From: Varunaivibrio sulfuroxidans | GTDB lineage: Bacteria; Pseudomonadota; Alphaproteobacteria; Rhodospirillales; Magnetovibrionaceae | Direction of reading: 5' to 3' | Assembly: GCF_029318635.1 (NCBI RefSeq) | Contig: NZ_CP119676.1 | Location: 1,301,001 to 1,365,000 of the forward strand | DNA: 64,000 nt | Shown here: in pieces, positions 1,418 to 19,928 of the stretch | Numbering within the stretch: the first letter of the stretch is position 1 | How the letters are laid out: every line of letters begins with the position of its first letter | The notes under the pieces: model-generated | The model's input: only the letters and a program-made list of their open reading frames with translations | Told to the model about the DNA's origin: nothing | Databases searched by the model: none | Made by a program: the position numbers and the translations under genes

Positions 1418-1435
1418 GGCGTTACGTTTCCTTTC

Positions 1436-3215: not shown

Positions 3216-3269
3216 CGGTTGTTTTCTCCACGGCGCGCGTGCGCCCACGATTCGCGACGGCGACGGGCG

Positions 3270-4322: not shown

Positions 4323-5104
4323 CGTGGTCCTCCCGTTCCTAAAGGACCTTTTCCGTCCTCGGCGAGCGATTTTTTCAGGCCCGCGTAGCGATCCTGACCG
4401 GCGTTGATCGCCCGTAAGTCGGGATTGGCGTCCACAACGGCCAAAGCGGCGCGATAATCCCAACCTTCCGGGCCGGGCGGAAGTCTTTCGAAAAGGGCGC
4501 ATAAAAAATCGTAATCCCGCGCCGTGTCCAAGGTCCAGCGGTATTCGGCGAGGCCCGCCACCGGGCAGGGATAGTGGGCTTGGCGCACATCGGGATGCCC
4601 ACGCACGTAGGGCGTGACGTGCTCACGCTGGGAAGGCAGCGTGGCCTCGCGGGCGCTGCGTTCGAGCCAGGAAAAGCGCACCGCCTCGCAATCCAATCCA
4701 TGAGGCCAACTGGGCGGCGTGTTGTTGCTGGCGTAATCGGCGTTTCGGTCGATCAGCGCCGCCAGAACCCCGCCGCACACGGCGGGATCGATCGCGGGAC
4801 AGTCGCTGGTCACGCGCATCACGACATCTGCGCTCAGCTCCCGAGCGGCGCGAACATAGCGGTCCAAAACGTCTTTTTCGGAACCGCGAAAGACATGAAC
4901 GCCAAGGCGGCGGGCCTCGTCGGCGACGGGATCGTCCGCGACGCCTTCGGGCACCGCGCAACAAACGACGTCGATGCCGGAGATGGCGCGGGCGCGTTCG
5001 AGCACATGGGCGAGAACGGTACGCCCGGCCAAGGGCTTGAGGACCTTACCGGGAAGCCGGCTCGATCCCAGGCGGGCCTGGATAATGACGGCGCACCCCC
5101 CCAT
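4319..5104 (-). CDS. SpsF-like cytidylyltransferase (second copy)
   Basis: The 261-residue protein opens with AVIIQARLGSSRLPGKVLKP, the CTP-binding loop of SpsF-type transferases. It continues with VFRGSEKDVLDRYVRAAREL and MRVTSDCPAIDP, containing the metal-binding Asp. The ATG at 5104 lies 2 nt after the pseC stop, so an upstream open extension of about 70 codons is an overlap artefact. It is clearly paralogous to the copy at 2478-3215 but diverged, especially in the C-terminal half, which suggests different sugar specificity. One copy probably makes the CMP-activated nonulosonate used by the glycosyltransferases nearby. Confidence 0.85.
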   Translation of the reverse strand: MGGCAVIIQARLGSSRLPGKVLKPLAGRTVLAHVLERARAISGIDVVCCAVPEGVADDPVADEARRLGVHVFRGSEKDVLDRYVRAARELSADVVMRVTSDCPAIDPAVCGGVLAALIDRNADYASNNTPPSWPHGLDCEAVRFSWLERSAREATLPSQREHVTPYVRGHPDVRQAHYPCPVAGLAEYRWTLDTARDYDFLCALFERLPPGPEGWDYRAALAVVDANPDLRAINAGQDRYAGLKKSLAEDGKGPLGTGGPR

Positions 5105-5105
5105 T

Positions 5106-6350
5106 TCACACCCTCTCGACCGTGTCGAGGCCGTCGCCAAGCGCCGCCACGACGCGCAAGACGTCATCGTCATCCATCGCCGGGAACAGCGGTAGGGAAA
5201 GGCAGCGGCTGTAGTAGCGCCACGCCCCCGGCAACGCGAGATCGCCATAGAGCTTTTTGTAATAGGGCTGCATGTGCACCGGCAGATAATGCACCTGAGT
5301 GCCGACGCCCTTTTCACTAAGGGCGTTCATCAGCGCCGCGCGGTCCCCGTCCAGGACGGAAAAATCGACCAGCACGACATATAAGTGCCACGCCGCGCGG
5401 CAATCTGGCCGTCGTTTCAAGAAGTCAAGCGCCGGATGGCCGAGGTCCCCGATCGCCCGGTCGTAAAGCGCGACCAGTTCGCCGCGCCGGGCGACGAAGC
5501 GATCGAGCTTGGCCAACTGGGACGCCCCCAAGGCGCACTGCATGTCGGTGGCGCGGTAATTATAGCCGATGTCGGCCATTTCGTAGTACCACGGGTTGGC
5601 GGCCCCATCCACGCCGAAAGCCAGGCCGCGGTTGACGAAGGCGTCGGCGTCGCGGGTCATGCCGTGACTTCGCGCCCGGCGCAACCGCGCCGCCAGGGCG
5701 TCGTCGTTGGTGGTGACCACGCCGCCCTCGCCCATGGTGATGGTTTTCACCGGATGCAGGGAAAATACGGCCATCGCGCCGTGCGCGCACGCGCCGACGT
5801 TCGTCCAACGTCCCTCCGCCCCCTTCGGATCATCGTTGACAAGGTAAGATCCGCCGATGGCGTGGCAGGCGTCCTCGACCAGCACCGCGCCGTGCCCAGC
5901 CGCGACCGCCGACAAGGCCGCCATGTCGGCGGGCTGACCCGCCAGATGAACCGCCAGCACCGCCTTGACCACGCCGCCCGCCCGGGCGAAGGCGTCCTCC
6001 AGTGTCTGCGGAGTTAACAACCCGTTGTCGGGATCGACGTCGGCGAACACCACATCCGCGCCGACATAACGCGCCGCATTGGCGGTAGCGAGGAAGGTCA
6101 GCGTCGGCGCGATCACCCGATCGCCGTGCCCGATCCCCAAGGCCAGCAAGGCCAGATGCAGCCCCGCCGTACCGTTGGCGCAGGCCACCGCATGACGGGC
6201 CCCGGTTTTTTCCGCGAACGCATTTTCAAATTTCCCGACGGCGGGCCCGGTGGTCAACCAATCGCTTTTCAGGCTGGCCACGACCGCGGCGATGTCATCG
6301 TCATCGACCGCCTGGCGCCCATAGGGCAAAAACGGGCCCGAAGCGCTCAT
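5106..6350 (-). CDS. pseC: UDP-4-keto-6-deoxy-sugar aminotransferase PseC-like
   Basis: This 414-residue PLP enzyme matches the PseC group, which aminates the 4-keto sugar made by PseB using glutamate. Motifs in order are SDWLTTGPAVGKFE near the N-terminus, CANGTAGLHLALLALG (cofactor phosphate loop), VLVEDACHAIGG (PLP-ring Asp) and FSLHPVKTITMGEGG, with the Schiff-base Lys. The C-terminal region has GTQVHYLPVHMQPYY, typical of PseC. The start overlaps the pseB stop by 4 nt, consistent with the PseB-PseC order seen in flagellin glycosylation clusters. Confidence in the subfamily is high because of the order and the motifs. Confidence 0.9.
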   Translation of the reverse strand: MSASGPFLPYGRQAVDDDDIAAVVASLKSDWLTTGPAVGKFENAFAEKTGARHAVACANGTAGLHLALLALGIGHGDRVIAPTLTFLATANAARYVGADVVFADVDPDNGLLTPQTLEDAFARAGGVVKAVLAVHLAGQPADMAALSAVAAGHGAVLVEDACHAIGGSYLVNDDPKGAEGRWTNVGACAHGAMAVFSLHPVKTITMGEGGVVTTNDDALAARLRRARSHGMTRDADAFVNRGLAFGVDGAANPWYYEMADIGYNYRATDMQCALGASQLAKLDRFVARRGELVALYDRAIGDLGHPALDFLKRRPDCRAAWHLYVVLVDFSVLDGDRAALMNALSEKGVGTQVHYLPVHMQPYYKKLYGDLALPGAWRYYSRCLSLPLFPAMDDDDVLRVVAALGDGLDTVERV

Positions 6351-7363
6351 TTTTTATCCAGTTCCATCAACGCCCGCAAACCATCCTGGTCGAGCCACTG
6401 GGGGTTGTTGTCGCTGGAATAGGAAAAATCGTCGCCGACCGGCCTGCCCACACCATTGTCCCCCTGCGACACCAAGCGGTTCAAGATCACGAAGCGGTCG
6501 TCGAATTCCAGGGTATTGGGCGAATGATCGGGGGAAATCAGCATTTCGTGAAGTTTTTCGCCGGGGCGAATGCCGATCACCTTGCGCGAGATCCCCGGTT
6601 TCAGGGCGTCGGCCAAATCGACCACGTGCATGCTCGCCATTTTCGGGGTGAAAACCTCGCCGCCGTTCATCTGCTCGAAACACGACAGCACGAAATCGAC
6701 CCCCTGTTGGATCGTTATCCAAAAACGGGTCATGCGCTCATCGGTGATCGGCAACTCCGTCGCGCCATCCCGAATCAGATTCTGGAATAACGGCACCACG
6801 CTGCCGCGCGAGCCGACGACGTTGCCGTAACGCACGCACGAAAAAATCGCGCCGCCTTTCCCGCTGAGACTGTTGGCGGCGATAAGGATTTTGTCCGACG
6901 CCAACTTGCTCGCGCCATAAAGATTGATCGGGTTAACCGCCTTGTCCGTCGATAACGCCATCACCTTTTTGACCCCGCAGGCGATCGCCGCCATCGCGAT
7001 ATTTTCAGCGCCGGTAATGTTGGTGTGGACACACTCGGTGGGGTTGTATTCGGCCACCGTGACGTGTTTCAGGGCGGCGGCATGAACGACGTATTCGATG
7101 TCCCTGAGCGCCATTTTCAGGCGTTCGAGATCGCGGACGTCACCGATGAAGTAACGCAAGCACGGATAGTCCGCCGGATTGAATTCCTGTTGCATTTCGA
7201 ACTGCTTCAACTCGTCGCGCGAGTAGATCACCAGGCGGCGCGGCGCGAAACGTTCGAGAACCGTCTTAATAAACTGGCGGCCGAACGAACCGGTGCCGCC
7301 GGTGACCAAAATGGATTTTCCATCCAACGAGAAAGACGACGGGTAATGGGGTGTGGAATTCAA
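6347..7363 (-). CDS. pseB: UDP-N-acetylglucosamine 4,6-dehydratase (inverting) PseB
   Basis: This short-chain dehydrogenase/reductase type enzyme starts pseudaminic acid synthesis by converting UDP-GlcNAc to the 4-keto-6-deoxy-L-sugar. Visible features are ILVTGGTGSFG (NAD(P) loop), YSRDELKQFEMQ, HAAALKHVTVAEYNP, STDKAVNPINLYGASKL (the YxxxK-type motif) and RYGNVVGSRGSVVP, all PseB-type rather than GDP-mannose dehydratase. I place the start at a TTG at 7363, which has AAGGAG eight bases upstream; an alternative TTG at 7402 lacks such a site. It is the first recognised gene of the operon that runs leftward to the window edge. Confidence 0.92.
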   Translation of the reverse strand: MNSTPHYPSSFSLDGKSILVTGGTGSFGRQFIKTVLERFAPRRLVIYSRDELKQFEMQQEFNPADYPCLRYFIGDVRDLERLKMALRDIEYVVHAAALKHVTVAEYNPTECVHTNITGAENIAMAAIACGVKKVMALSTDKAVNPINLYGASKLASDKILIAANSLSGKGGAIFSCVRYGNVVGSRGSVVPLFQNLIRDGATELPITDERMTRFWITIQQGVDFVLSCFEQMNGGEVFTPKMASMHVVDLADALKPGISRKVIGIRPGEKLHEMLISPDHSPNTLEFDDRFVILNRLVSQGDNGVGRPVGDDFSYSSDNNPQWLDQDGLRALMELDKK

Positions 7364-7539
7364 GAATAAAACTCCTTCGTTTTGCCCTGTCGGTATATGC
7401 AATGCCGGCTGGCGTTTTTTTCCGAAATGGCGACGGCGGCGGCGGCGATAAAGAAGCGCCGACGGCGAGGCGAAGCGACCGAATTTAGCACTCGGATTTC
7501 GGCGCGCCCCGAGGGGACGACGCCTTGCCGTCCGGCCCT

Positions 7540-7776
7540 TTAATTGGCGCTCGAAAACCCCCCGGCTTCGACATTTTTACGCGACGCCTCCAACATTTCC
7601 GCGGCGGATTGCTCTCCATAAATATCGACCAGCTTACTTACCGAGGCGGACAGAATGACCAAACTCAAACTCTGCGGCGAAACGCCGCGCTTAATGGCTT
7701 CGTCCCACATCGCCGAAAACCATTCGAGCGCGAGATCGGTCTCGTCGTTTTCGCCCAACGGCGCTTGTTCGGACAT
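7540..7776 (-). CDS. Small hypothetical protein between glycan operon and TPR transferase
   Basis: The 78-residue product starts MSEQAPLGENDETDLALEWF and is rich in acidic residues and helix formers; no signal peptide or membrane segment is visible. The ATG at 7776 has a good ribosome site, GGAG, seven bases upstream. An upstream extension of the open frame has no such support. I do not recognise the family. It lies between the TPR-glycosyltransferase and pseB on the same strand, so a role tied to flagellin modification or flagellar assembly is possible but unproven. Confidence 0.6.
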   Translation of the reverse strand: MSEQAPLGENDETDLALEWFSAMWDEAIKRGVSPQSLSLVILSASVSKLVDIYGEQSAAEMLEASRKNVEAGGFSSAN

Positions 7777-7920
7777 GACGCTTCTCCAAAAACGTTGGCC
7801 TTCAGGTTCTTCATATAAAGAACGGCATATCGCTTTTACAGCTAAACTATATTGCAAAAAAGCGGTAAGGATCAGGAGGCTAAGCCTATGACGGACGACA
7901 CCGAGGCGCAACAGTCAAGA

Positions 7921-9687
7921 TTATTCGATTTTTTCACGCAATGCCGCCTCGACGGCATCGAGAACGCCGCCCCAATCTCCGGGGTGAGACTGACGAAAAA
8001 GGCGGATCGTCGGATACCAAACGCTGTCGGCGCGTTCATCCATCCACAAAAAGCCCGTCGGCTGCGCCATCAACGCCCAGGCTTCCTTGCCCAGCGCCCC
8101 TGCCAGATGAAGCACCCCGGTATCCACGCTAATCACCAAATCCAAAGCATCCAACGCCGCCGCGGTATCGGCGAAATCTTCCAGAAAACCGGCAAGATCA
8201 ATGAGGTTCGCGCCTCCCGGGGACGCTTCCGATAGCGCTCTCACGTCGTCCCTGAAGGGGCCGACCTGCAAACTATAAAACGTCGTCCCCGGAACATTCA
8301 ACAAACCCTGCAGCAACGTCGGCGCGCACGAACGCTTGTGATTGTCCCGCCGTGTCGGACTGCCTGCCCATACCAGACCGACTTTCAACCCCGAGACCTC
8401 GAACAGCTCGCGCGGAACGGCGCTTTCGCCGGGCGGCGCGAGGTATGGGGTTTCGGCGGGGACCGTCTCCAAAGTCGTGCCCAGGAGATGAGGCAGGCTC
8501 ATCAGCGGAACTTGGACGTCGAACGGCGGCAGAGGGTCTCCCAGGGTAACGACCTGCGCGACACCGTCGATCCCGGAAAACAGGCGCTCGAGTCCGGCAC
8601 GGCATTCGACGATGACGCGCCCGCCCCGTTCGCGCACCATAGCGACGTAGCGTATAAACTGAATGGCGTCGCCGAAGCCCTGCTCGCCAAGCAACGCGAT
8701 GGTGCGCCCGGCCAAGGGGCCGCCATCCCACTGCGGCGTCGAAAAATTACGTTTGAAGGCCGCGAACGTCGGCGTACGCCAGCGCCATTCGTATTCCTTC
8801 CAACCTTCGCGGTACCGTCCCGCCTGCAACAGCGCCAACGATAAATTCCAGTGCAGGTCCACGCTTTCCGGCTCGAAGGTCAACGCCGTACGCAGGCATT
8901 CGATCGCCGCCGTGCTGTCGCCCTTGGATTGGTGCGCGCTGGCCAAATTGCAATAGGCGTCAACATAATCCTCGCGCAGGGCTATGGCGCGCTCGAACGC
9001 GGTGACGGCGGCGTCGAAGGCGTCTAATTTCAACGACGCCAAAGCGAGGTTATAGTGGGCCGTCTCGTTCCCGCTCTCAAGCGCGGTCGCCTTGGACAAG
9101 GCGTCCCTGGCGTCTTCGTATTGGCCCAAATCCATATGCGTAAGGCCTAAATTGAACCAAGCATTGGCGTTATCGCCGCAGTGGGGCATGACCTTTTCGA
9201 GGGTTTTCAGAGCCTCTTCAGGGCGGTCCAGGCCAAGCAGGGCGTTGGCCATGTTGACCGAAAGGTCGGACAGGCTTTTATCATGGGCCAGCCCCTGGAC
9301 GCAGGCCTCCATCGCTTCTTGATGACGGTCCAGGGCATTCAGACAACTGGCCAGATTGTTATACGCCGGGGCCGCCTCGGGATTGAGTAAAATGGCCCGC
9401 CGAAAGGCGTCGAGCGCCTCATCGAGGCGTCCGGCTTGTTGCAGGACATTGCCCAGGTTGACGAAGGGCGCGAAGTAATCGGGCGCCGCCTCGCCCGCCT
9501 GAGACAGCAATGAAATCGCCGTATCTAGCTCCCCAACGGCCTGGAAAATCAACCCCAGAAGGTTCAAGGCGTCGGCGTTGTTCGGCTCTTCGATGAGAAC
9601 TTTCTCGTAAACCTTCGCCGCCTCGCCCAAACGTCCGGATTGATGTAGGGACAACCCCGACGCCAGAAGATGTTGCAAATCGCTCAC
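7921..9687 (-). CDS. TPR-repeat protein with C-terminal glycosyltransferase domain (FlmG-like architecture)
   Basis: This is a 588-residue protein. Residues 1-290 are at least seven tetratricopeptide repeats, for example GRLGEAAKVYEKVLIEEPNN, GRLDEALDAFRRAILLNPEA and GDSTAAIECLRTALTFEPES. After a linker (GRYREGWKEYEWRWR), residues ~320-588 form a GT-B-like transferase domain with LLGEQGFGDAIQFIRY, LKVGLVWAGSP and LDLVISVDTGVLHLAGALG. This TPR-plus-transferase layout and length resemble Caulobacter FlmG, which transfers pseudaminic acid to flagellin. The gene lies between the nonulosonate operon and the flagellin array, divergent from fla1. The substrate assignment is inference from architecture and position. 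Confidence 0.82.
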   Translation of the reverse strand: MSDLQHLLASGLSLHQSGRLGEAAKVYEKVLIEEPNNADALNLLGLIFQAVGELDTAISLLSQAGEAAPDYFAPFVNLGNVLQQAGRLDEALDAFRRAILLNPEAAPAYNNLASCLNALDRHQEAMEACVQGLAHDKSLSDLSVNMANALLGLDRPEEALKTLEKVMPHCGDNANAWFNLGLTHMDLGQYEDARDALSKATALESGNETAHYNLALASLKLDAFDAAVTAFERAIALREDYVDAYCNLASAHQSKGDSTAAIECLRTALTFEPESVDLHWNLSLALLQAGRYREGWKEYEWRWRTPTFAAFKRNFSTPQWDGGPLAGRTIALLGEQGFGDAIQFIRYVAMVRERGGRVIVECRAGLERLFSGIDGVAQVVTLGDPLPPFDVQVPLMSLPHLLGTTLETVPAETPYLAPPGESAVPRELFEVSGLKVGLVWAGSPTRRDNHKRSCAPTLLQGLLNVPGTTFYSLQVGPFRDDVRALSEASPGGANLIDLAGFLEDFADTAAALDALDLVISVDTGVLHLAGALGKEAWALMAQPTGFLWMDERADSVWYPTIRLFRQSHPGDWGGVLDAVEAALREKIE

Positions 9688-10092
9688 ATCACTCTCCCCG
9701 TTCCCTTTCGTTAAAGGACTCGCTCATAACAAAGGCGGAAAAGAACGCATCCCTTCGAATTTTTAACACATTAAGTTCCAAAATAGAGAGTTTTCCAAGA
9801 CCCGCCCGCCGATGACGGAAACCAGCGAGAATGGGTCTTTCAAATTTAGAATAAATACAAACTAATGCATTGATCTTAAATACTTTTTATCGTTGTGCTT
9901 TCTTATCTTGCGGCGTAAGATCGAGGCCGTTACGTGGTTGCTCCCGGTTGCGGACACGCCGAGAAGGCGTTTTCCGTGGGGGGGGCAGTTCGAAGTGGGG
10001 TCCGCGCCGCGTTTTGCTTTGCCGGACCTCGGCGGTACGCAATTCAGAGAAATGAATTGCCTGTCATACGCTCTAGAACGGAGTAAAAAACG
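9688..10092. promoter_or_regulatory. Divergent intergenic region between TPR-transferase and first flagellin
   Basis: These 405 bases hold no gene I can support. The middle part (9750-9910) is clearly AT-richer than its surroundings, as expected for promoters. A GCCGATGA near 9808 resembles a sigma-28 minus-10 element, but its minus-35 is poor. The 3' end carries the leader hairpin and leader box of fla1, listed separately. Confidence 0.4.
10039..10085 (+). promoter_or_regulatory. fla1 leader: hairpin plus conserved flagellin leader box
   Basis: GCAATTCA (10039-10046) and TGAATTGC (10053-10060) form a perfect 8-bp stem with a 6-nt loop. Ten bases later comes CTCTAGAACGGAGTA (10071-10085), which holds the Shine-Dalgarno GGAG of fla1. 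GCTC at 10070-10073 can pair with GAGT at 10081-10084 and partly hide that site. The same box stands before all four flagellin genes. A translational control element is inferred; FlbT binding to flagellin leaders is known in Caulobacter. Confidence 0.6.
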
Positions 10093-11253
10093 ATGTCCGA
10101 TATTACCCTTTCCGCCTCCGTGCGGCAGAACCTTCTTTCCCTGCAATCCACCACCCAGTTGATCGGCCGCACACAGAACCGGCTGTCCACGGGCCTGCGT
10201 GTCGCCAGCCCGATCGACGACCCGGTGTCCTTCTTCCAGGCCAAAGGCCTGACCGATCGCGCCACCGATTTCAGCGAAAAGAAGGACAACATCGATCAGG
10301 GCGTCAGCTCGCTAACCGCGGCGACCGACGCCGTGACCGCCGTCGAATCCCTGGTTCAACAGCTCAAGGGTCTGGCGACCAACGCCAAGTCCTCGACCAC
10401 CACCACCCAGATCGACAACATCGCCAGCCAGTTCAACGATCTGCGCGCGCAGATCGACAACCTGGTCAACGACGCGTCCTATCAGGGCCTCAACCTGGTC
10501 GCCGGCACCGGCAGCACTCTGACGGTCAACTTCAGTAACGACACCGCCAGCATCCTCAACGTCAAATCCGTCGATATTCGCGCCGGCGGCACCGGCCTCG
10601 ACGTTTCCGTGCTGTCGCGCGGCACCGAGGGGATCAACTTCAACCGCAGCGCCATCTCGGCGGGAACGGTTACCGCCGGCGGTTCGATCGCGGTGACCAT
10701 CGGTGGGCAGTCCGCCAACACCTTGACGGTCGGCGACACCTTCACGCTGACCTACGGCACCCAGACGTTCGCTGTGACTATTTCCTCCACGGCAACGGCG
10801 ACAACAACGAACTTCCTTTCTCAAGGCACCTATTCGGTCGGCGATACGATCTCCTTCACGATCGCTTCCGCCGCCTTATCGACAGGACCGACTAAATTAC
10901 TCAATATCGGCGCCGCCAGCGTTTCGGTTTCCGAGGGTGCGGGCGTGCGTCAGGTCGGCGTCGGCTACGCCACCGACCTCAGCAACGCGATCACCAACCT
11001 GGACAGCGCCTTGACGACGCTGCGCAGCCGGTCGCAGACCCTGGGTTCGAACGTCGCCTTGTTGCAAACCCGTCTCGACTTCACCAAGAACTATGTCAAC
11101 ACCCTGACCTCCGGTTCGGGCAAGTTGACCTTGGCCGACCTCAACCAGGAAGGCGGTAACCTGCTTGCGTTGCAGACCCGCCAGCAGTTGGGTATTCAGG
11201 CCCTGTCGTTCGCCGGGAAGTCCGAACAGGCGATCCTCGGGTTGTTCCGTTAA
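10093..11253 (+). CDS. Flagellin paralogue 1
   Basis: The product is a 386-residue flagellin, the structural subunit of the flagellar filament, exported by the flagellar type III apparatus. The N-terminal D0/D1 segment (about residues 1-140) contains LQSTTQLIGRTQNRLSTGLR and INNPxx-like SPIDDPVSFFQAKGL. The C-terminal D1/D0 segment starts around AITNLDSALTTLRSRSQ and ends QAILGLFR. The middle (~170-300) is Thr/Ser rich and is the likely surface and O-glycosylation region. It differs from copies 2-4 between about residues 220 and 275 (TLTYGTQTFAVTISSTATAT). It is the first of four tandem copies, with its own leader and terminator. Confidence 0.95.
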   Translation: MSDITLSASVRQNLLSLQSTTQLIGRTQNRLSTGLRVASPIDDPVSFFQAKGLTDRATDFSEKKDNIDQGVSSLTAATDAVTAVESLVQQLKGLATNAKSSTTTTQIDNIASQFNDLRAQIDNLVNDASYQGLNLVAGTGSTLTVNFSNDTASILNVKSVDIRAGGTGLDVSVLSRGTEGINFNRSAISAGTVTAGGSIAVTIGGQSANTLTVGDTFTLTYGTQTFAVTISSTATATTTNFLSQGTYSVGDTISFTIASAALSTGPTKLLNIGAASVSVSEGAGVRQVGVGYATDLSNAITNLDSALTTLRSRSQTLGSNVALLQTRLDFTKNYVNTLTSGSGKLTLADLNQEGGNLLALQTRQQLGIQALSFAGKSEQAILGLFR

Positions 11254-11305
11254 TCCCAGCACCTCTCGGCCTAACATCGGTCGGAAAATCTCATTCTATC
11301 CTTCC

Positions 11306-11340
11306 GCCGGACGATGAGTACCCTCATCGCCCGGCTTTCT
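11306..11340 (+). terminator. Rho-independent terminator after fla1
   Basis: GCCGGACGATGAG pairs with CTCATCGCCCGGC (one mismatch) around a TACC loop and is followed by TTTCT. It lies 52 bp after the fla1 stop, making fla1 a separate transcription unit. Confidence 0.8.
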
Positions 11341-11663
11341 CGTTCCGCCTACGCCAACGCCCCTTTATCTTCTTGAATTAAACGTCCACCCACGGGACGT
11401 CATATCTCCCTTAATTTTTTGGCGCATTAGGTTTGAGATAAGACCTTCCAAACTTCTTTCGCCGGGACAACAAATTTTCACTTTAGACTAACTCTAAACG
11501 TGCATATGTCGGCATATTTTTTTTAAAAGTTGCATTTTCATCCCTTCCAGACTAATCTTGCCGGGACTATGTGGCTACCTTGCCTTTGGGGCTACCGTAG
11601 GGCTGGGAGGCCGCCGTAGGGTCGGGGCTTTAGTTTTTCGTCCCGTCAGGCTTCGTTTGTGAG
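11341..11663 (+). promoter_or_regulatory. Intergenic region upstream of fla2
   Basis: No coding sequence is supported. The first two thirds are AT-rich with several T and A runs, typical of a promoter area. I could not find a convincing sigma-28 or sigma-54 match. The 3' end continues into the fla2 leader. Confidence 0.35.
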
Positions 11664-11709
11664 CGATTCGGAGAATCGGATCGCCTTATATGCACTCTAG
11701 AATGGAGTA
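11664..11709 (+). promoter_or_regulatory. fla2 leader: hairpin plus conserved flagellin leader box
   Basis: CGATTC (11664-11669), GGA, GAATCG (11673-11678) gives a 6-bp stem with a 3-nt loop. The leader box CTCTAGAATGGAGTA follows at 11695-11709. ACTC at 11694-11697 can pair with GAGT at 11705-11708, covering the Shine-Dalgarno site. Layout matches the other three flagellin leaders. Confidence 0.55.
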
Positions 11710-11715
11710 CACCCC

Positions 11716-12876
11716 ATGTCCGACATCACCCTTTCCGCCTCCGTGCGGCAGAACCTTCTTTCCCTGCAATCCACCACCCAGTTGATCGGCCGCACACAGA
11801 ACCGGCTGTCCACGGGCCTGCGCGTCGCCAGCCCGATCGACGACCCGGTGTCGTTCTTCCAGGCCAAAGGCCTGACCGATCGCGCCACCGACTTCAACGA
11901 AAAGAAGGACAACATCGATCAGGGCGTCAGCTCGCTGACCGCGGCGACCGACGCCGTGACCGCGATCGAATCCCTGGTTCAACAGCTCAAGGGTCTGGCG
12001 ACCAACGCCAAATCCTCGACCACCACCACTCAGATTAACAATATTGTCAGCCAGTTCAACGATTTGCGCGGGCAAATCGACAATTTGGCCAACGATGCGT
12101 CGTATCAGGGCCTCAACTTGGTCGCCGGCACCGGCAGCACCCTGACGGTCAACTTCAGTAACGACACCGCCAGCATCCTCAACGTTCAATCCGTCGATAT
12201 CCGCGCCGCCAATACGGGCCTAGACATCGCCCAACTCAGCGCCTACAGCGGCGGCGGCATTCCGCTTAACGTCGCCTATCTTTCCGCCGGCGCAGTGACC
12301 GCCGGGGGAAGCGCCACGGTGACCATCGGCGGGCAATCCGCCAGCACCTTGACGGTCGGCGATACCTTCACGCTGTCTTACGGCACCCAGACGTTCACCA
12401 TCACGGTGACCTCCTCGGCGACCGGCTCGGCGGCGAACCTGCTGTCGGCGGGCACCTATTCGGTCGGCGATACGATCACCTTCACCGCCGTTTCGGCGAC
12501 CACCACGACGACCACCAAACTATTGAACCTGGGGGCCAGTTCGGTCACGGTCACCGCGACACTGGCCAAACGCGCGATCGGCGTCGGCTTCGCCACTGAA
12601 CTCAGCTCGCGGATCACCAACCTGGACAGCGCCTTGACGACGCTGCGCAGCCGGTCGCAGACCCTGGGTTCGAACGTCGCCTTGTTGCAAACCCGTCTCG
12701 ACTTCACCAAGAACTACGTCAACACCCTGACCTCCGGTTCGGGCAAGTTGACCTTGGCCGACCTCAACCAGGAAGGCGGTAACCTGCTTGCGTTGCAGAC
12801 CCGCCAGCAGTTGGGTATTCAGGCCCTGTCGTTCGCCGGGAAGTCCGAACAGGCGATCCTCGGGTTGTTCCGTTAA
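11716..12876 (+). CDS. Flagellin paralogue 2 (most diverged centre)
   Basis: A 386-residue flagellin with the same terminal domains as copy 1 but the most distinct middle. From about residue 155 it reads NVQSVDIRAANTGLDIAQLS and AYSGGGIPLNVAYLSAGAVT, where the others share a LSRGTEGINFNR-type stretch. Near residue 290 it has SSVTVTATLAKRAIGVGFAT instead of SVSEGAGVRQVGVGY. From residue ~215 to ~280 it matches copies 3 and 4 closely (TLSYGTQTFTITVTSSATGS). It therefore looks like the donor or relative of a segment now shared with copies 3 and 4. Terminal domains needed for assembly are intact, so it should be a functional minor or alternative filament subunit. Confidence 0.95.
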   Translation: MSDITLSASVRQNLLSLQSTTQLIGRTQNRLSTGLRVASPIDDPVSFFQAKGLTDRATDFNEKKDNIDQGVSSLTAATDAVTAIESLVQQLKGLATNAKSSTTTTQINNIVSQFNDLRGQIDNLANDASYQGLNLVAGTGSTLTVNFSNDTASILNVQSVDIRAANTGLDIAQLSAYSGGGIPLNVAYLSAGAVTAGGSATVTIGGQSASTLTVGDTFTLSYGTQTFTITVTSSATGSAANLLSAGTYSVGDTITFTAVSATTTTTTKLLNLGASSVTVTATLAKRAIGVGFATELSSRITNLDSALTTLRSRSQTLGSNVALLQTRLDFTKNYVNTLTSGSGKLTLADLNQEGGNLLALQTRQQLGIQALSFAGKSEQAILGLFR

Positions 12877-12926
12877 TCCCAGCACCTCTCGGCCCTTTAA
12901 GACCGGGAGTTTCCTTTTGGTGATGA

Positions 12927-12962
12927 GGCCGGGCGATGGAAAACTTCATCGCCCGGCCTTTG
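12927..12962 (+). terminator. Rho-independent terminator after fla2
   Basis: GGCCGGGCGATG and CATCGCCCGGCC form a perfect 12-bp stem with an 8-nt loop, followed by TTT. It lies 50 bp after the fla2 stop. Confidence 0.8.
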
Positions 12963-13290
12963 GCGTTGTCCTCGCCTGAGCACACTCGCTTGAGCACATA
13001 TGTGTTGTTTCCCCCGAGAGTGCGCGGTACCATATCTATATCTATGCGAGTGAACATAATTTCGTTTTCCCGCACGTGTTGCCGTGAGGCATTTTCGCGG
13101 CGTGTCGAACGGAGAGGGGCGCGCCTGCGCGCCAACACGAAGGCATGTGAGCGAATGCCGTATGCCCTTCGTGTTGGTAATGGCGTCTTGGTGACAGCGC
13201 CATCGAAGATGGCGCATACGAGAGAAAATACAGAGGGGCGTAGCCTGATCGACGCACTTGACGTCGGAATCAGCGCTCTAGAATGGAGTA
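12963..13290 (+). promoter_or_regulatory. fla3 upstream region with two hairpins and the leader box
   Basis: No real gene lies here; an open frame that crosses it is only a reading of the leader and of fla3 in the wrong frame. Two strong inverted repeats are present. CCAACACGAAGGCAT (13132-13146) pairs with ATGCCCTTCGTGTTGG (13162-13177) with one bulge. GCGCCATC (13197-13204) pairs perfectly with GATGGCGC (13208-13215). Neither is followed by a T run, so they are unlikely terminators. The leader box CTCTAGAATGGAGTA is at 13276-13290, directly before the fla3 ATG. This leader is longer and more structured than the others. Confidence 0.5.
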
Positions 13291-13296
13291 AAAACC

Positions 13297-14454
13297 ATGT
13301 CCGATATTACCCTTTCCGCCGCCGTGCGGCAGAACCTTCTTTCCCTGCAATCCACCACCCAGTTGATCGGCCGCACACAGAACCGGCTGTCCACCGGTCT
13401 GCGCGTCGCCAGCCCGATCGACGACCCGGTGGCGTTCTTCCAGGCCAAGGGCCTATCCGACCGCGCCGCCGATTTCAGCGAAAAGAAGGACAACATCGAT
13501 CAGGGCGTCAGCTCGCTAACCGCGGCGACCGACGCCGTGACCGCCGTCGAATCCCTGGTTCAGCAGCTCAAGGGTCTGGCGACCAACGCCAAGTCCTCGA
13601 CCACCACCACCCAGATCGACAACATCGCCAGCCAGTTCAACGACTTGCGCGCGCAGATCGACAACCTGGTCAACGACGCGTCCTATCAGGGCCTCAACCT
13701 GGTCGCCGGCACCGGCAGCACCCTGACGGTCAACTTCAGTAACGACACCGCCAGCGTCCTCAACGTCAAATCCGTCGATATTCGCGCCGGCGGCGCCGGC
13801 CTCGACGTTTCCGTGCTGTCGCGCGGCACCGAGGGGATCAACTTCAACCGCGGCGCCATCTCGGCGGGAACGGTTACCGCCGGCGGTTCGATCGCGGTGA
13901 CCATCGGTGGGCAGTCCGCCAACACCTTGACGGTCGGCGATACCTTCACGCTGTCTTACGGCACCCAGACGTTCACCGTCACGGTGACCTCCTCGGCGAC
14001 CGGCTCGGCGGCGAACCTGCTGTCGGCGGGCACCTATTCGGTCGGCGACAGCATCACCTTCACCGCCGTTTCGGCGACCACGACGACGACCACCAAATTG
14101 CTCAATATCGCCGCCAGTTCGGTTTCGGTTTCCGAGGGTGCGGGCGTGCGTCAGGTCGGCGTCGGCTACACCACCGACCTCAGCAACGCGATCACCAACC
14201 TGGATAGCGCCTTGACGACGCTGCGCAGCCGGTCGCAGACCCTGGGTTCGAACGTCGCCTTGTTGCAGACCCGTCTCGACTTCACCAAGAACTACGTCAA
14301 CACCCTGACCTCCGGTTCGGGCAAGTTGACCTTGGCCGACCTCAACCAGGAAGGCGGTAACCTGCTTGCGTTGCAGACCCGCCAGCAGTTGGGTATTCAG
14401 GCCCTGTCGTTCGCCGGGAAGTCCGAACAGGCGATCCTCGGGTTGTTCCGTTAA
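13297..14454 (+). CDS. Flagellin paralogue 3
   Basis: A 385-residue flagellin almost identical to copy 4. Distinguishing residues sit near the N-terminus: SAAVRQNLL, AFFQAKGLSDRAADF. The central part is a mosaic: residues ~150-215 follow copy 1 (GLDVSVLSRGTEGINFNR), residues ~220-280 follow copy 2 (TFTLSYGTQTFTVTVTSSAT), and residues ~285-305 again follow copy 1 (SVSEGAGVRQVGVGY). Both terminal D0 domains are complete. The high identity to neighbours suggests recent duplication or ongoing gene conversion. It has its own leader and a downstream hairpin. Confidence 0.95.
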   Translation: MSDITLSAAVRQNLLSLQSTTQLIGRTQNRLSTGLRVASPIDDPVAFFQAKGLSDRAADFSEKKDNIDQGVSSLTAATDAVTAVESLVQQLKGLATNAKSSTTTTQIDNIASQFNDLRAQIDNLVNDASYQGLNLVAGTGSTLTVNFSNDTASVLNVKSVDIRAGGAGLDVSVLSRGTEGINFNRGAISAGTVTAGGSIAVTIGGQSANTLTVGDTFTLSYGTQTFTVTVTSSATGSAANLLSAGTYSVGDSITFTAVSATTTTTTKLLNIAASSVSVSEGAGVRQVGVGYTTDLSNAITNLDSALTTLRSRSQTLGSNVALLQTRLDFTKNYVNTLTSGSGKLTLADLNQEGGNLLALQTRQQLGIQALSFAGKSEQAILGLFR

Positions 14455-14460
14455 TCCCAA

Positions 14461-14495
14461 CGCCTCCCCGACTTTAAGTTAAGGGCGGGGAGGCG
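14461..14495 (+). terminator. GC-rich hairpin after fla3, possible terminator
   Basis: CGCCTCCCCG and CGGGGAGGCG form a 10-bp stem around a 15-nt loop, starting 6 bases past the fla3 stop. No T run follows, so termination may be weak or Rho-assisted. Confidence 0.5.
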
Positions 14496-14583
14496 CGGCC
14501 CGGCGTCGAATTCGCCGAAATCTTCAAATGAAGCGGCGTGCTGCGATCGCAAAAGAATTTTAAAAACAAGACCGTAACTACAT

Positions 14584-14610
14584 TATAGTAATTTTTATTC
14601 ACGCCGATAC
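14584..14610 (+). promoter_or_regulatory. Candidate sigma-28 (FliA) promoter for fla4
   Basis: TATAGTAA, then 11 bases, then GCCGATAC resembles the enterobacterial FliA consensus TAAAGTTT-N11-GCCGATAA (5 of 8 and 7 of 8 matches). It would give a ~170-nt leader. Comparable sites were not clear upstream of fla1-fla3, and alphaproteobacterial flagellins often use other sigma factors, so this is tentative. Confidence 0.35.
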
Positions 14611-14730
14611 GTTTATTCATTGCCACCCGTGACGTTCATCTCTATATTTGATGGCGTACCTTTCGCTTTCGGGCGCATTAAAAGGTCCAGTTAATTTTTC
14701 CGGTGTGGACTTACCGGGAAAAATTTTGAA

Positions 14731-14779
14731 AACGGCCCATAGAAATGGGCCGTTACAACAAAAACTCTAGAACGGAGTA
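14731..14779 (+). promoter_or_regulatory. fla4 leader: hairpin plus conserved flagellin leader box
   Basis: AACGGCCCAT (14731-14740) and ATGGGCCGTT (14745-14754) make a perfect 10-bp stem with a 4-nt AGAA loop. Exactly ten bases later the leader box CTCTAGAACGGAGTA begins (14765-14779), the same spacing as in fla1. ACTC at 14764-14767 can pair with GAGT at 14775-14778. Confidence 0.6.
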
Positions 14780-14786
14780 AAAAACG

Positions 14787-15944
14787 ATGTCCGATATTAC
14801 CCTTTCCGCCTCCGTGCGGCAGAACCTTCTTTCCCTGCAATCCACCACCCAGTTGATCGGCCGCACACAGAACCGGCTGTCCACGGGCCTGCGCGTCGCC
14901 AGCCCGATCGACGATCCGGTGTCGTTCTTCCAGGCCAAAGGCCTGACCGATCGCGCCACCGATTTCAGCGAAAAGAAGGACAACATCGATCAGGGCGTCA
15001 GCTCGCTAACCGCGGCGACCGACGCCGTGACCGCCGTCGAATCCCTGGTTCAGCAGCTCAAGGGTCTGGCGACCAACGCCAAGTCCTCGACCACCACCAC
15101 CCAGATCGACAACATCGCCAGCCAGTTCAACGATCTGCGCGCGCAGATCGACAACCTAGTCAACGACGCGTCCTATCAGGGCCTCAACCTGGTCGCTGGC
15201 ACCGGCAGCACCCTGACGGTCAACTTCAGTAACGACACCGCCAGCATCCTCAACGTCAAATCCGTCGATATTCGCGCCGGCGGCACCGGCCTCGACGTTT
15301 CCGTGCTGTCGCGCGGCACCGAGGGGATCAACTTCAACCGCGGCGCCATCTCGGCGGGAACGATTACCGCCGGCGGTTCGATCGCGGTGACCATCGGTGG
15401 GCAGTCCGCCAACACCTTGACGGTCGGCGATACCTTCACGCTGTCTTACGGCACCCAGACGTTCACCGTCACGGTGACCTCCTCGGCGACCGGCTCGGCG
15501 GCGAACCTGCTGTCGGCGGGCACCTATTCGATCGGTGACAGCATCACCTTCACCGCCGTTTCGGCGACCACGACGACGACCACCAAATTGCTCAATATCG
15601 CCGCCAGTTCGGTTTCGGTTTCCGAGGGTGCGGGCGTGCGTCAGGTCGGCGTCGGCTACGCCACCGACCTCAGCAACGCGATCACCAACCTGGACAGCGC
15701 CTTGACGACGCTGCGCAGCCGGTCGCAGACCCTGGGTTCGAACGTCGCCTTGTTGCAGACCCGTCTCGACTTCACCAAGAACTACGTCAACACCCTGACC
15801 TCCGGTTCGGGCAAGTTGACCTTGGCCGACCTCAACCAGGAAGGCGGTAACCTGCTTGCGTTGCAGACCCGCCAGCAGTTGGGTATTCAGGCCCTGTCGT
15901 TCGCCGGGAAGTCCGAACAGGCGATCCTCGGGTTGTTCCGTTAA
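14787..15944 (+). CDS. Flagellin paralogue 4
   Basis: A 385-residue flagellin. Its first ~210 residues match copy 1 almost exactly (SASVRQ, VSFFQAKGLTDRATDF), and the rest matches copy 3. A few unique changes occur, such as AGTITAGGS and TYSIGDSITF. The Thr/Ser-rich centre with a run of threonines (SATTTTTTKLLN) offers many candidate O-glycosylation sites. It is the last gene of the array, 187 bp before the Maf gene, and is closed by a strong terminator. Confidence 0.95.
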   Translation: MSDITLSASVRQNLLSLQSTTQLIGRTQNRLSTGLRVASPIDDPVSFFQAKGLTDRATDFSEKKDNIDQGVSSLTAATDAVTAVESLVQQLKGLATNAKSSTTTTQIDNIASQFNDLRAQIDNLVNDASYQGLNLVAGTGSTLTVNFSNDTASILNVKSVDIRAGGTGLDVSVLSRGTEGINFNRGAISAGTITAGGSIAVTIGGQSANTLTVGDTFTLSYGTQTFTVTVTSSATGSAANLLSAGTYSIGDSITFTAVSATTTTTTKLLNIAASSVSVSEGAGVRQVGVGYATDLSNAITNLDSALTTLRSRSQTLGSNVALLQTRLDFTKNYVNTLTSGSGKLTLADLNQEGGNLLALQTRQQLGIQALSFAGKSEQAILGLFR

Positions 15945-16011
15945 TCCCAACGTCTCCTGGACTTTTAAGGTCGGGAGCGCGGGGTTCGAGAAAACTCACC
16001 TGGAAATCAAC

Positions 16012-16044
16012 AAAAGGGGGAAGGCCTTTGGCCTTCCCCCTTTT
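16012..16044 (+). terminator. Rho-independent terminator after fla4
   Basis: AAAAGGGGGAAGGCC and GGCCTTCCCCCTTTT form a perfect 15-bp stem with a TTT loop. The flanking A and T runs allow function on both strands. It separates the flagellin array from the Maf gene. Confidence 0.85.
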
Positions 16045-16131
16045 GCCATGCCCCCCTTTTGATTGTCGTGCGGGCGTTAACGCGGTATTTTCAAGTTTCA
16101 TCCCTTCGTTTCGAGAGGACCCGGACACGAC

Positions 16132-18174
16132 ATGACCGAATCCAAGAAGGCCCTCCGCGCCAAAAAAATAATGCCGGACACCTTTCACGCCGTGCCGGCC
16201 GAGAATCTGAACCGCGCCCTATTCAAAAAAAACCTCGCCGCGATCGCCCGCCGACAACCCGAGATCGCAGACAAACTAAAGGCGCTCAAGGAAACCTACG
16301 CTACGCTTATGGTTAACGACGCGGGCCAGTACGATATCCACTTTCGCGGCGCGGCGCTTCAGGACGCGGGCCACCTGGACTGGGCCGAACAACGAATGGA
16401 TAAGTTTCACGTCCGCGGCGGCCTCAAACGGTTACAAATGGCGCCCATCGACAGCGCGAACCTGGACGACGAATCGAACCTCGCGTCCTATCGCATGATG
16501 AAGCGCGCGGTCGATGCCGATATCCATTTTCTCAACGCACCCAACACGTTGGAAGCCTACCATGTCATCGCTTTCGGGATCGGACTCGGCTTTCACTTGA
16601 ACCGCCTGGCCGAGGTAACGCGTTGCCGCCACCTGTTGCTGGTCGAACCCAATTTGGAGTTTCTGTATTGGTCCTGCTACCTGTTTGACTGGACCGCCTT
16701 TTACCGGGAGGCGCGCCGCCATCACCGCGAGGTCGTCATTATCAACGTGACGGACCCAACCCGGATCATGGAGCTTTGCATCGGGTACGTCCGCCTCGAC
16801 AACCCGGCTTTCGTCGATGGGCTACTTCTGTTTCAAAGCTACCAAAGCTCATTGATGCACGCCGCCCAAGAAAACATCATCAAGAACCGCGACCTGTTCA
16901 ACATCGGCCTTGGCTTTCTCGAAGATGAGATCGACATGATCCGAAACAGTTATCGCAACTTAAAAAACTTCACGGGAAAGTACTACGCAACCCATGAGGA
17001 GGAGCTGATCCCCCATCCGGTTTTCGTTATCGGCTCGGGACCGTCACTGGACAACGACCTGAAATTCATACGCGACAATGCCGACAAGGCGATCGTTGTG
17101 TCCTGCGGAACGGTGCTGCGCGTCCTGCTGCGCAACGGCATTGTCCCCGATTTCCAAATGGAAATGGAAAACGTGCCCGCCGTCACCGAACTGATGCGCG
17201 CCTTAAGCAAGGATTACGACCTGTCGAGCATCAAACTCGTCGCTTCCAACACCGTAGATCCCGGCGTCGCGCCGCACTTTGAACAGGTCGTTTATTACAT
17301 CCGCACGGGAATTTCCAGTTCGCCGATTTTCTCCGTCGCCCCCAAGTGTGGCATTCCCTACAGCACCCCCACGGTAACCAATCTCGGTTTTTCCTTCGCC
17401 CAGGAATTCGGGGCGCGCGAGATTTACCTTTTCGGGGTCGATCTGGGCGCGCGCAACCCGGAGAAACACCATGCCTCCGACGCCCCTTACAATGACGGCG
17501 AATTGGAATTCACCACGACGATCAATGTCCCGACTCCGGGAAATTTCGGTGGCGAGGTCCAAAGCGAAAAAATTTACCTATGGTCCAAAAACACTCTCGA
17601 ACTGGCGATGAAGCGCTTTCCGCTACGCATGTATGTCAACTGTTCCGACGGCGTGCATATCAAAGGCGCGCTGCCCAAGCTGTCGTCCTCGGTCCTGCTG
17701 GGTCCCTCGACCGACAAAAAGGCCACGGTTGACGCGATCTGGTCACGTTTTCCCGCATACACCCCCGAGCTGTTCGAGTGGTCGTGGAACAGATACGACC
17801 TGCGCCGGGAACTCAAAAAGGTCGCCGGAAATATCTTGCGCAAATGTTATAAAAGCACCCTCGCGGCCAGGCGCAATGAAAACACCCACGATCTCGAATT
17901 CACCTTCAAGGTCATCCACACCTTTATCACCGGAGAGGATGGCGAGAGCGCCGAAATCCACTATTTACGCGGATCCGGTCTGATGTTTCTGTCGCTGGTG
18001 ACCTATTACTACAGCCGCGTACCCACCCCGGAAAAACGCGCCGTCTACGCCGAAATCGCCCGCGACGAATTTTCCCATCTGGTGCGTACCATCCGCGACA
18101 CCATGCTGGAATTTTACGATTACCTCGAAGAAAAGATCGAGCAGGATGGAAAATACGAGACCCGCCCTCAATAG
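16132..18174 (+). CDS. Maf-type motility accessory factor, flagellin nonulosonate transferase
   Basis: The 680-residue product belongs to the Maf/DUF115 (MptE-like) family, proposed to transfer CMP-activated nonulosonic acids onto flagellin in the cytoplasm. The N-terminal domain (about 1-270) includes AFGIGLGFHLNRLAEVTRCR and LLLVEPNLEFLYWSCYLFDW. The central domain (~290-500) has the sialyltransferase-like nucleotide motif PVFVIGSGPSLDNDLKFI, then IVVSCGTVLRVLLRNGIVPDF, PTVTNLGFSFA and EIYLFGVDLGAR. A helical C-terminal third follows. Maf is required for flagellum formation in Magnetospirillum magneticum. Its position directly after four flagellins and close to a nonulosonate operon supports this role. 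The target flagellin and sugar are not proven. Confidence 0.9.
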   Translation: MTESKKALRAKKIMPDTFHAVPAENLNRALFKKNLAAIARRQPEIADKLKALKETYATLMVNDAGQYDIHFRGAALQDAGHLDWAEQRMDKFHVRGGLKRLQMAPIDSANLDDESNLASYRMMKRAVDADIHFLNAPNTLEAYHVIAFGIGLGFHLNRLAEVTRCRHLLLVEPNLEFLYWSCYLFDWTAFYREARRHHREVVIINVTDPTRIMELCIGYVRLDNPAFVDGLLLFQSYQSSLMHAAQENIIKNRDLFNIGLGFLEDEIDMIRNSYRNLKNFTGKYYATHEEELIPHPVFVIGSGPSLDNDLKFIRDNADKAIVVSCGTVLRVLLRNGIVPDFQMEMENVPAVTELMRALSKDYDLSSIKLVASNTVDPGVAPHFEQVVYYIRTGISSSPIFSVAPKCGIPYSTPTVTNLGFSFAQEFGAREIYLFGVDLGARNPEKHHASDAPYNDGELEFTTTINVPTPGNFGGEVQSEKIYLWSKNTLELAMKRFPLRMYVNCSDGVHIKGALPKLSSSVLLGPSTDKKATVDAIWSRFPAYTPELFEWSWNRYDLRRELKKVAGNILRKCYKSTLAARRNENTHDLEFTFKVIHTFITGEDGESAEIHYLRGSGLMFLSLVTYYYSRVPTPEKRAVYAEIARDEFSHLVRTIRDTMLEFYDYLEEKIEQDGKYETRPQ

Positions 18175-18365: not shown

Positions 18366-19220
18366 ATGGCTGGCATTGCAGACATTTATTCGGGAGGCGA
18401 TTTTTCCGCCGGATTTGCGCAAACCGCGCAGAGCGCCGTGCGCCCGAATTTGGAGTACCAGGTCAATATCTTGCAGAACGCCGTCATCAAGCGTCTCAAT
18501 GAGAAAATCAGCGCCGTCAACGCCGATAAAGACCTGAAGAACAGCACCCTCGATGCTTATCTCAGCAGCCAAAAGAAAAAGCTCAGCGATTTTTCCTTTC
18601 AAACGGAAAAATACATTTTCGATAATGGTCGCAATATGATCACGGCCGACGCGTTGACGACGAAACTCAACGACTTAAGCGCCGCCCTCGCCGCCAACGA
18701 CACGACGACCTTCAATCAGGTCCTTAAAAGCATCAACCAAGTCACCGACATGATGACCCAGGCCAACGGCATGCCCATCGGCATTGTCGTCGATGACGGC
18801 GTTACCAAGCTTCAAAGTCCCGGATTGGTGCAGTATAACAACGCAGGCACCCAGACCCGGGCCACCCAACGTAGCGATTTCGCCACCGACGCCGACGCCA
18901 CGGCCGCCATCAATCAGGCTTTCAACAATCTCGGCACGACCTCTCAGGTTCTCTCTTTCAATCAGGACGCCGCCGAAAACCTGCGTTCGAAAACCCAAGG
19001 CAAACTCAACGGCACCATTTTGCAGTTGGAGGCCGTGCGCGTCGCCAATGACGCCGAGAAGGCCAACGAAGTCGAAAAACTGCGCCGACAGTACAGCCAG
19101 TTTCTCAATGCGATTTCGTTATCCTATGAAAGCAACGCCGCCTTGACCGAAAAATTGTCGTCGTCGCTTTTCGGCCCCCTCGACATTCAACCCGGGTCGG
19201 TGATGAACCTATTCGCCTAA
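18366..19220 (+). CDS. Unrecognised helical protein of the flagellin locus
   Basis: A 284-residue protein of no family I recognise. It has no signal peptide or membrane segment. The N-terminus, MAGIADIYSGGDFSAGFAQT, is followed by helix-forming and coiled-coil-like stretches (LNEKISAVNADKDLKNSTLD; later EVEKLRRQYSQFLNAI) rich in Asn, Gln, Ala and Ser. A C-terminal hydrophobic end SVMNLFA resembles the ends of secreted axial flagellar proteins. Low Cys/Trp content and this composition suggest export by the flagellar apparatus, as for hook-associated proteins, but this is inference. It lies just after the Maf gene, behind a terminator, with GGCGGAT before the ATG. Confidence 0.7.
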   Translation: MAGIADIYSGGDFSAGFAQTAQSAVRPNLEYQVNILQNAVIKRLNEKISAVNADKDLKNSTLDAYLSSQKKKLSDFSFQTEKYIFDNGRNMITADALTTKLNDLSAALAANDTTTFNQVLKSINQVTDMMTQANGMPIGIVVDDGVTKLQSPGLVQYNNAGTQTRATQRSDFATDADATAAINQAFNNLGTTSQVLSFNQDAAENLRSKTQGKLNGTILQLEAVRVANDAEKANEVEKLRRQYSQFLNAISLSYESNAALTEKLSSSLFGPLDIQPGSVMNLFA

Positions 19221-19274: not shown

Positions 19275-19928
19275 TCACGCCGTTTGCCCGTCGCCGTCGA
19301 TTTGATAGACCCGATGCAACTGTTCGGGGGCGGATATACCGACATTGAGATCGTGTAAGATACCGTCTTGAAGACGATAAACCCAGCCATGGACCATCAC
19401 CTTTTTTCCTCGACGCCAGGCATTTTGTACGATCGGCGTCTTCGCCACATTGTGGACCTGCGCCGCCACGTTCAGCTCGCACAATCGGTCCCTTTGCGCT
19501 TCGGAATTATCGATCATTGCGATCTCATCATAGTGGTGACGATATATTTCCTTGACGTGCGCCAACCAATTGTCGATTTGACCGTGATCGCAATGGTCCA
19601 TCGCCGCCGCGATCCCCCCGCAGCCATAATGGCCCGTGACGATAATATGGCGCACATTGAGAACCTCGACGGCAAACTGGATGACGGCCAGGCAGTTTAA
19701 ATCGCTATGAGGAACGACATTGGCGATGTTCCGGTGAACGAACATCTCACCCGGTTGCAAGCCCACGATTTCGTTGGCCGGAACCCGGCTGTCCGAACAT
19801 CCGATCCACAGATATTCGGGATTTTGAACCCCGCAAAGCCGACTAAAAAACTGCGCGTCCTCACCAATCTTCGCCGAAGCCCACGCCTTATTCCTGTCCA
19901 AAAGATCGCCCGCATGTTTATCGCACAT
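19275..19928 (-). CDS. can: Beta-class carbonic anhydrase
   Basis: The 217-residue enzyme interconverts CO2 and bicarbonate in the cytoplasm. The zinc ligands are visible as WIGCSDSRVP (Cys, with the Asp-Arg dyad) and TGHYGCGGIAAAM (His and second Cys). Other family segments are FVHRNIANVVPHSDLN and VMVHGWVYRLQDGILHDL. Length and motifs are normal for the bacterial clade. It stands alone, convergent with the preceding gene and upstream of an ABC transporter operon on the same strand but 330 bp away. Confidence 0.95.
   Translation of the reverse strand: MCDKHAGDLLDRNKAWASAKIGEDAQFFSRLCGVQNPEYLWIGCSDSRVPANEIVGLQPGEMFVHRNIANVVPHSDLNCLAVIQFAVEVLNVRHIIVTGHYGCGGIAAAMDHCDHGQIDNWLAHVKEIYRHHYDEIAMIDNSEAQRDRLCELNVAAQVHNVAKTPIVQNAWRRGKKVMVHGWVYRLQDGILHDLNVGISAPEQLHRVYQIDGDGQTA

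Follow-up and report, generated by a model that had tools for sequence, protein, structure and literature searches.

A TPR glycosyltransferase of FlmG-like layout but outside the FlmG clade and a Maf protein flank one flagellin array in Varunaivibrio sulfuroxidans

Two different candidate flagellin glycosyltransferases flank a single flagellin array in V. sulfuroxidans, and the one that resembles FlmG of Caulobacter in layout is, judged by its sequence, an architectural analogue of FlmG and not its orthologue. The window analysed here is the whole 64,000-nucleotide stretch at positions 1301001-1365000 of the one-contig 3.07 Mb genome. Within it, four flagellin genes (10093-15944, plus strand) lie between a divergent gene for a TPR-plus-glycosyltransferase protein (TPR-GT; left, minus strand) and maf (right, plus strand), as the initial annotation had noted, and both transferase genes are intact. 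We favour, with a probability of about 45%, a model in which two non-redundant cytoplasmic glycosyltransferases serve the array, Maf adding a nonulosonate and the TPR-GT adding a further sugar, from an NDP donor, either to flagellin itself or to the glycan begun by Maf. This model draws on the observed genes, their linkage, the clade and donor motif of the TPR-GT, its predicted fold and the presence of a single NeuB. The features concerned are as follows.

92-1417, minus strand: second DegT-family aminotransferase
1436-2491, minus strand: Gfo/Idh/MocA oxidoreductase
2478-3248, minus strand: SpsF-like cytidylyltransferase 2
3270-4502, minus strand: NeuB/PseI-type synthase, the sole NeuB of the genome
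4319-5317, minus strand: SpsF-like cytidylyltransferase 1
5106-6350, minus strand: PseC (TIGR03588 above cut-off)
6347-7402, minus strand: PseB (TIGR03589 above cut-off)
7540-7911, minus strand: small ORF with no family found, 9 bp after the TPR-GT gene; likely start an internal Met (about 78 aa)
7921-9687, minus strand: TPR plus GT-B glycosyltransferase, GT9-type and outside the FlmG clade, 588 aa; heads the nonulosonate operon and is transcribed away from flagellin 1
10093-11253, plus strand: flagellin 1
11716-12876, plus strand: flagellin 2, which diverges most from the others (84-88% identity)
13297-14454, plus strand: flagellin 3
14787-15944, plus strand: flagellin 4
16011-16046 (give or take a few bases), plus strand: strong hairpin AAAAGGGGGAAGGCC-TTTG-GCCTTCCCCCTTTTG
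16132-18174, plus strand: Maf, candidate nonulosonate transferase, 680 aa

Pairwise identity among the four flagellins is 84-98%, with the same Ser/Thr-rich middle in each, and because they are so alike the earlier suggestion that each transferase serves different flagellins is unlikely. The hairpin in the gap between flagellin 4 and maf was read from the sequence and is absent from the matches of a consensus scan; it appears terminator-like, and maf may have its own promoter, with the hairpin separating it from flagellin 4. Genes for FlaF, FlbT and FlgE/I/K/L-like proteins lie directly upstream of the window, the Flg names having been given by reading the sequence. Downstream of maf, a 284-aa ORF (18366-19220) has no Pfam or NCBIfam match but homologues at 7 of the order's 20 fetched Maf neighbourhoods (L312, L318, L323-L326, L328), and a carbonic anhydrase gene (19275-19928; Pro_CA, PF00484) adjoins the flagellin locus.

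The protein on the right is the only Maf of the genome, and its gene is linked to flagellin and nonulosonate genes. It matches the PF20157 N-terminal domain (E 2e-56) and the MptE-like family (E 1.5e-29), with a weak Maf_C match below cut-off, and no TPR was found in it. Its closest PDB relative, aligned over residues 23-670 (E 2.7e-112), is 5mu5, a structure entered under the title 'Uncharacterized protein' which we take to be the Maf of Magnetospirillum magneticum. The minus-strand operon on the other side of the array runs in the order TPR-GT, small ORF, PseB, PseC, SpsF, NeuB, SpsF, Gfo/Idh and second DegT aminotransferase. Both of the SpsF enzymes originally noted in it are present (2478-3248 and 4319-5317), but the accompanying idea that two different nonulosonates are added is unlikely, since a genome search returned a single NeuB. 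No PseG was found in the genome and PseH gave only weak matches far from the locus, so that the nonulosonate pathway looks non-standard. The module of second DegT aminotransferase, Gfo/Idh oxidoreductase and second SpsF (92-3248) recurs beside Maf at loci L317 (74/55/60% identity) and L074 (50/26/49%).

The TPR-GT consists of TPRs over approximately residues 1-275 (PF00515, E 1.7e-48) followed by a GT-B domain at approximately residues 285-588. The latter passes the Pfam GT9 cut-off (24.2 bits against 22), and in isolation gave no Pfam GT41 match at E up to 1; a PDB sequence search with the entire protein returned TPR proteins only. Its donor-site region reads SVDTGVLHLAG, with WAG, and keeps the GT9 motif D-T-G-x-x-H. 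The profile of its clade aligns at the expected place, weakly (E 0.63), with D261-T262-G263-H266 of WaaC, whose residues 261-266 presumably contact the nucleotide sugar. The AlphaFold2 model (pLDDT 87) predicts a TPR superhelix followed by a GT9-like GT-B domain, an arrangement as in OGT; OGT and SPINDLY are the top whole-chain Foldseek matches, and the modelled GT domain (322-588) superposes on the GT9 structure 3tov with Z 18.9 and an rmsd of 2.9 over 250 residues. A paralogue at 1.84 Mb of the same genome, in an apparent polysaccharide locus, shares 37% identity with it across the GT domain.

FlmG is the cytoplasmic flagellin O-glycosyltransferase of Caulobacter (PMC7591256). The C. crescentus protein has 596 aa, with TPR at 1-313 and GT at 309-596, in a genome without Maf, and flagellin binding by the TPR and nonulosonate-dependent transfer have been demonstrated in C. 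crescentus alone (PMC7591256). The FlmG layout originally ascribed to the window protein, N-terminal TPR and C-terminal GT-B in about 600 aa, holds, but placement within the FlmG lineage is rejected by tree, topology test, donor motif and Pfam GT9 assignment alike. Our FlmG reference set came from a contig scan using TPR-GTs adjoining flbT, whose matches include many Caulobacter; the reference protein is that of C. vibrioides OR37 (L234, 598 aa), in the gene order three flagellins, flbT, flmG, spsF. The GT domain of the window TPR-GT is 26% identical to this FlmG and up to 60% identical to TPR-GTs of its own order. In a tree of 46 GT domains FlmG forms a separate clade (100/99). A 100/100 split divides it from the window TPR-GT, which belongs to an 11-member clade specific to the order (96/96) and groups there with the flagellin-linked G463 and G474 (95/56). 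When the window protein is constrained into the FlmG clade the penalty is 170 log units (AU test, p = 2e-72), and tree and AU test together rule out FlmG orthology. The donor-site region of FlmG reads GFSNATINLAG, with WKS, and this FlmG-type motif (W-K/R-S, no His) is missing from the window protein. The FlmG GT domain has no Pfam match, GT9 included, yet its predicted model is also a TPR superhelix with a GT9-like GT-B domain (Z 18.3 to 3tov), and therefore fold alone leaves the donor undecided. The two proteins are best regarded as different enzymes that share a layout and deep common ancestry.

The initial annotation held that FlmG and Maf each normally serve alone, and our genome survey for their joint occurrence bears this out for FlmG proper, within the flanks fetched, but not for Maf in this order. 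A TPR-GT match is present in 110 of the 120 order genomes surveyed, many of which have several copies, and Maf in 55; 52 of these 55 have both. A TPR-GT lies within about 10 kb of maf in 14 of the 20 Maf neighbourhoods fetched for the order, against about 0.5-1.3 expected from gene density; the pairing is thus common among relatives, and the linkage is not due to chance. FlmG-type loci have flagellar genes in 71 of 80 cases and maf in none of the 80 (fetched flanks). Across a sample of 385 genomes of the class, any TPR-GT occurs in 142, Maf in 26 and both in 12; FlmG-type proteins occur in 10, for which sharing with Maf would be expected about 0.7 times and is seen at most once, in G238, a weak partial Maf match in a contaminated genome. 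Among the flagellar loci examined, each of the 19 TPR-GTs counted beside Maf is GT9-type and none is FlmG-type, and where Maf is missing 47 of 64 are FlmG-like, without the motif His. This association (Fisher's test, p 3e-9 by rows and 3e-5 by families) amounts to about one deep phylogenetic split among loci sampled non-randomly; it lacks phylogenetically independent support, since a comparison of independent pairs on the tree has no power. It hints that FlmG would replace Maf and that the GT9-type TPR-GT would accompany it. The component parts are of known kinds, and the pairing of Maf with TPR transferases is undescribed in the literature that we searched, in which subscription sources were thinly covered. 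Two genomes of another family (L074 and L076) repeat the association: flagellin, Maf, PseB, FlbT and FlaF share one block with a GT41-like TPR protein and with a GT9-type TPR-GT that is short (417 aa).

It is rather unlikely that the TPR-GT acts on another flagellar or surface protein and owes its position next to flagellin to the history of the operon, although several observations would fit. The family is large and, across the 110 of 120 order genomes that carry it, mostly not flagellum-linked; the linked copy in sister genomes adjoins the hook genes flgE, flgD and fliK; and part of the window protein's own clade is not visibly flagellum-linked. Three of its ten other members are linked to flagellin or Maf (G463, G474, G399) and G401 lies near a PseH-like gene and flagellar-like sequence, while the short flanks of the remaining six hold no flagellin- or Maf-type genes and some of these adjoin housekeeping genes such as rmuC. 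Against this stand the linkage to Maf, far above chance, and a position at the head of the nonulosonate operon with transcription away from flagellin 1. The same observations bear on the possibility, raised originally, that the TPR protein is a general GT41/GT9-like protein unrelated to flagella: it is indeed GT9-like, but it heads this operon, and linkage to flagellin or Maf is seen for some of its closest relatives. Maf-linked TPR transferases span several lineages of the family, and their functions may therefore differ.

We consider it unlikely that the TPR-GT has a FlmG-like function and transfers nonulosonate too, at sites other than those of Maf. Its FlmG-like layout and length and its place as first gene of the nonulosonate operon are consistent with such a role, as is its orthologue in G401, which adjoins a PseH-like gene in a genome where Maf was not found, and so are GT9-type TPR-GTs at L120 and L131, beside flagellins and nonulosonate genes in genomes where Maf was not detected. 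Its separate clade and its donor motif, unlike that of FlmG, argue otherwise. Most Maf-less cases checked also have a nearby FlmG-type or FlmG-profile-matching TPR-GT (G014, G370; G175, G271), and the GT9-type protein therefore need not be the nonulosonate transferase there. At Maf-less flagellar loci generally, GT9-type TPR-GTs tend to neighbour FlmG-type or FlmG-profile-matching ones (L095, L097; G175, G271). At L256 (1300-4737), in a genome where Maf was not detected, an orthologue of the window protein has a PseH-like acetyltransferase on one side and, on the other, a FlgE-like reading frame with an apparent frameshift.

In relatives maf is abutted by a gene for a TPR protein (about 640 aa) that matches Pfam GT41 in its C-terminal half, weakly in some cases; examples lie at L321 (7932-9869), L315 (11092-13029) and L327 (7980-9974), the last scoring in the TPR part alone. 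A profile search places such a protein at or near maf in all 33 flagellar Maf loci examined, comprising 20 of the order (one at a contig end with the gene cut) and 13 further loci of the class; the gene mostly abuts maf on the same strand and in a few cases lies 1-5 kb away. None was found in the window and 14 kb upstream, 78 kb in all, and within this span the locus is unusual in being without the partner gene that nearly always stands beside maf. Absence from the whole genome is plausible, though the TPR-based search made of it would catch only about 35 of 64 GT41-like TPR proteins. That the TPR-GT stands in for this partner, a different history compatible with the two-transferase model, is improbable: the partner's presence at 33 of 33 other loci and its absence here would suit substitution, but many relatives carry both kinds of TPR protein, which are therefore not simple alternatives, and the own-genome search has the limited reach just given. 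A wider reading, which we hold only tentatively as somewhat doubtful, is that alphaproteobacterial Maf belongs to a conserved team with TPR transferases, a GT41-like one abutting maf and often a GT9-type one besides, which would recruit flagellin for Maf or co-modify it, the window being a reduced version with the GT9-type partner only.

In the two-transferase model that we prefer, Maf would move the nonulosonate of the adjoining operon from its CMP donor onto Ser/Thr of flagellin. The TPR-GT would be an OGT-like enzyme whose TPR superhelix holds the acceptor, most likely flagellin, and whose GT9-type domain may transfer a different NDP-activated sugar onto flagellin or onto the nonulosonate added by Maf. 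Activity, flagellin as acceptor, donor class and order of action are what we infer here. A second enzyme of this kind has a proven precedent in Aeromonas, where Fgi-1 extends the pseudaminic acid on flagellin by its first additional sugar (PMC7874193).

How flagellin glycosyltransferases locate their acceptor is poorly understood; FlmG has its own TPR binding domain and no TPR was found in the window Maf. At the flagellin loci of Alphaproteobacteria Maf is almost always accompanied by TPR-bearing transferases, which suggests a common principle of acceptor recognition, and flagellin-adjacent TPR-GT genes should not be named FlmG without a tree. The window TPR-GT is like Caulobacter FlmG in length, in having a TPR superhelix at the N-terminus and a GT-B domain with a GT9-like fold at the C-terminus, and in its linkage to flagellin and nonulosonate genes; it is unlike FlmG in its GT domain (26% identity), its clade and its D-T-G-x-x-H motif, which FlmG does not have, and in sharing its locus with Maf, which is absent from FlmG loci. 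With the GT9 heptosyltransferases (WaaC; 3tov) it shares the GT fold and donor motif, and it differs from them in its TPR domain, its linkage to flagellin and its acceptor, presumably a protein or a protein-bound glycan. Like OGT and SPINDLY of GT41 it has a TPR superhelix followed by GT-B, but its GT domain matches Pfam GT9 and not GT41. The window Maf resembles 5mu5 in full-length homology, domains and proximity to flagellin; unlike the other flagellar Maf loci examined, its own has no TPR/GT41-like neighbour. The Aeromonas system of Maf and Fgi-1 is comparable in function, in that one more glycosyltransferase works alongside the enzyme that puts pseudaminic acid on flagellin, with the difference that Fgi-1 begins the extension of a heterogeneous glycan (PMC7874193).
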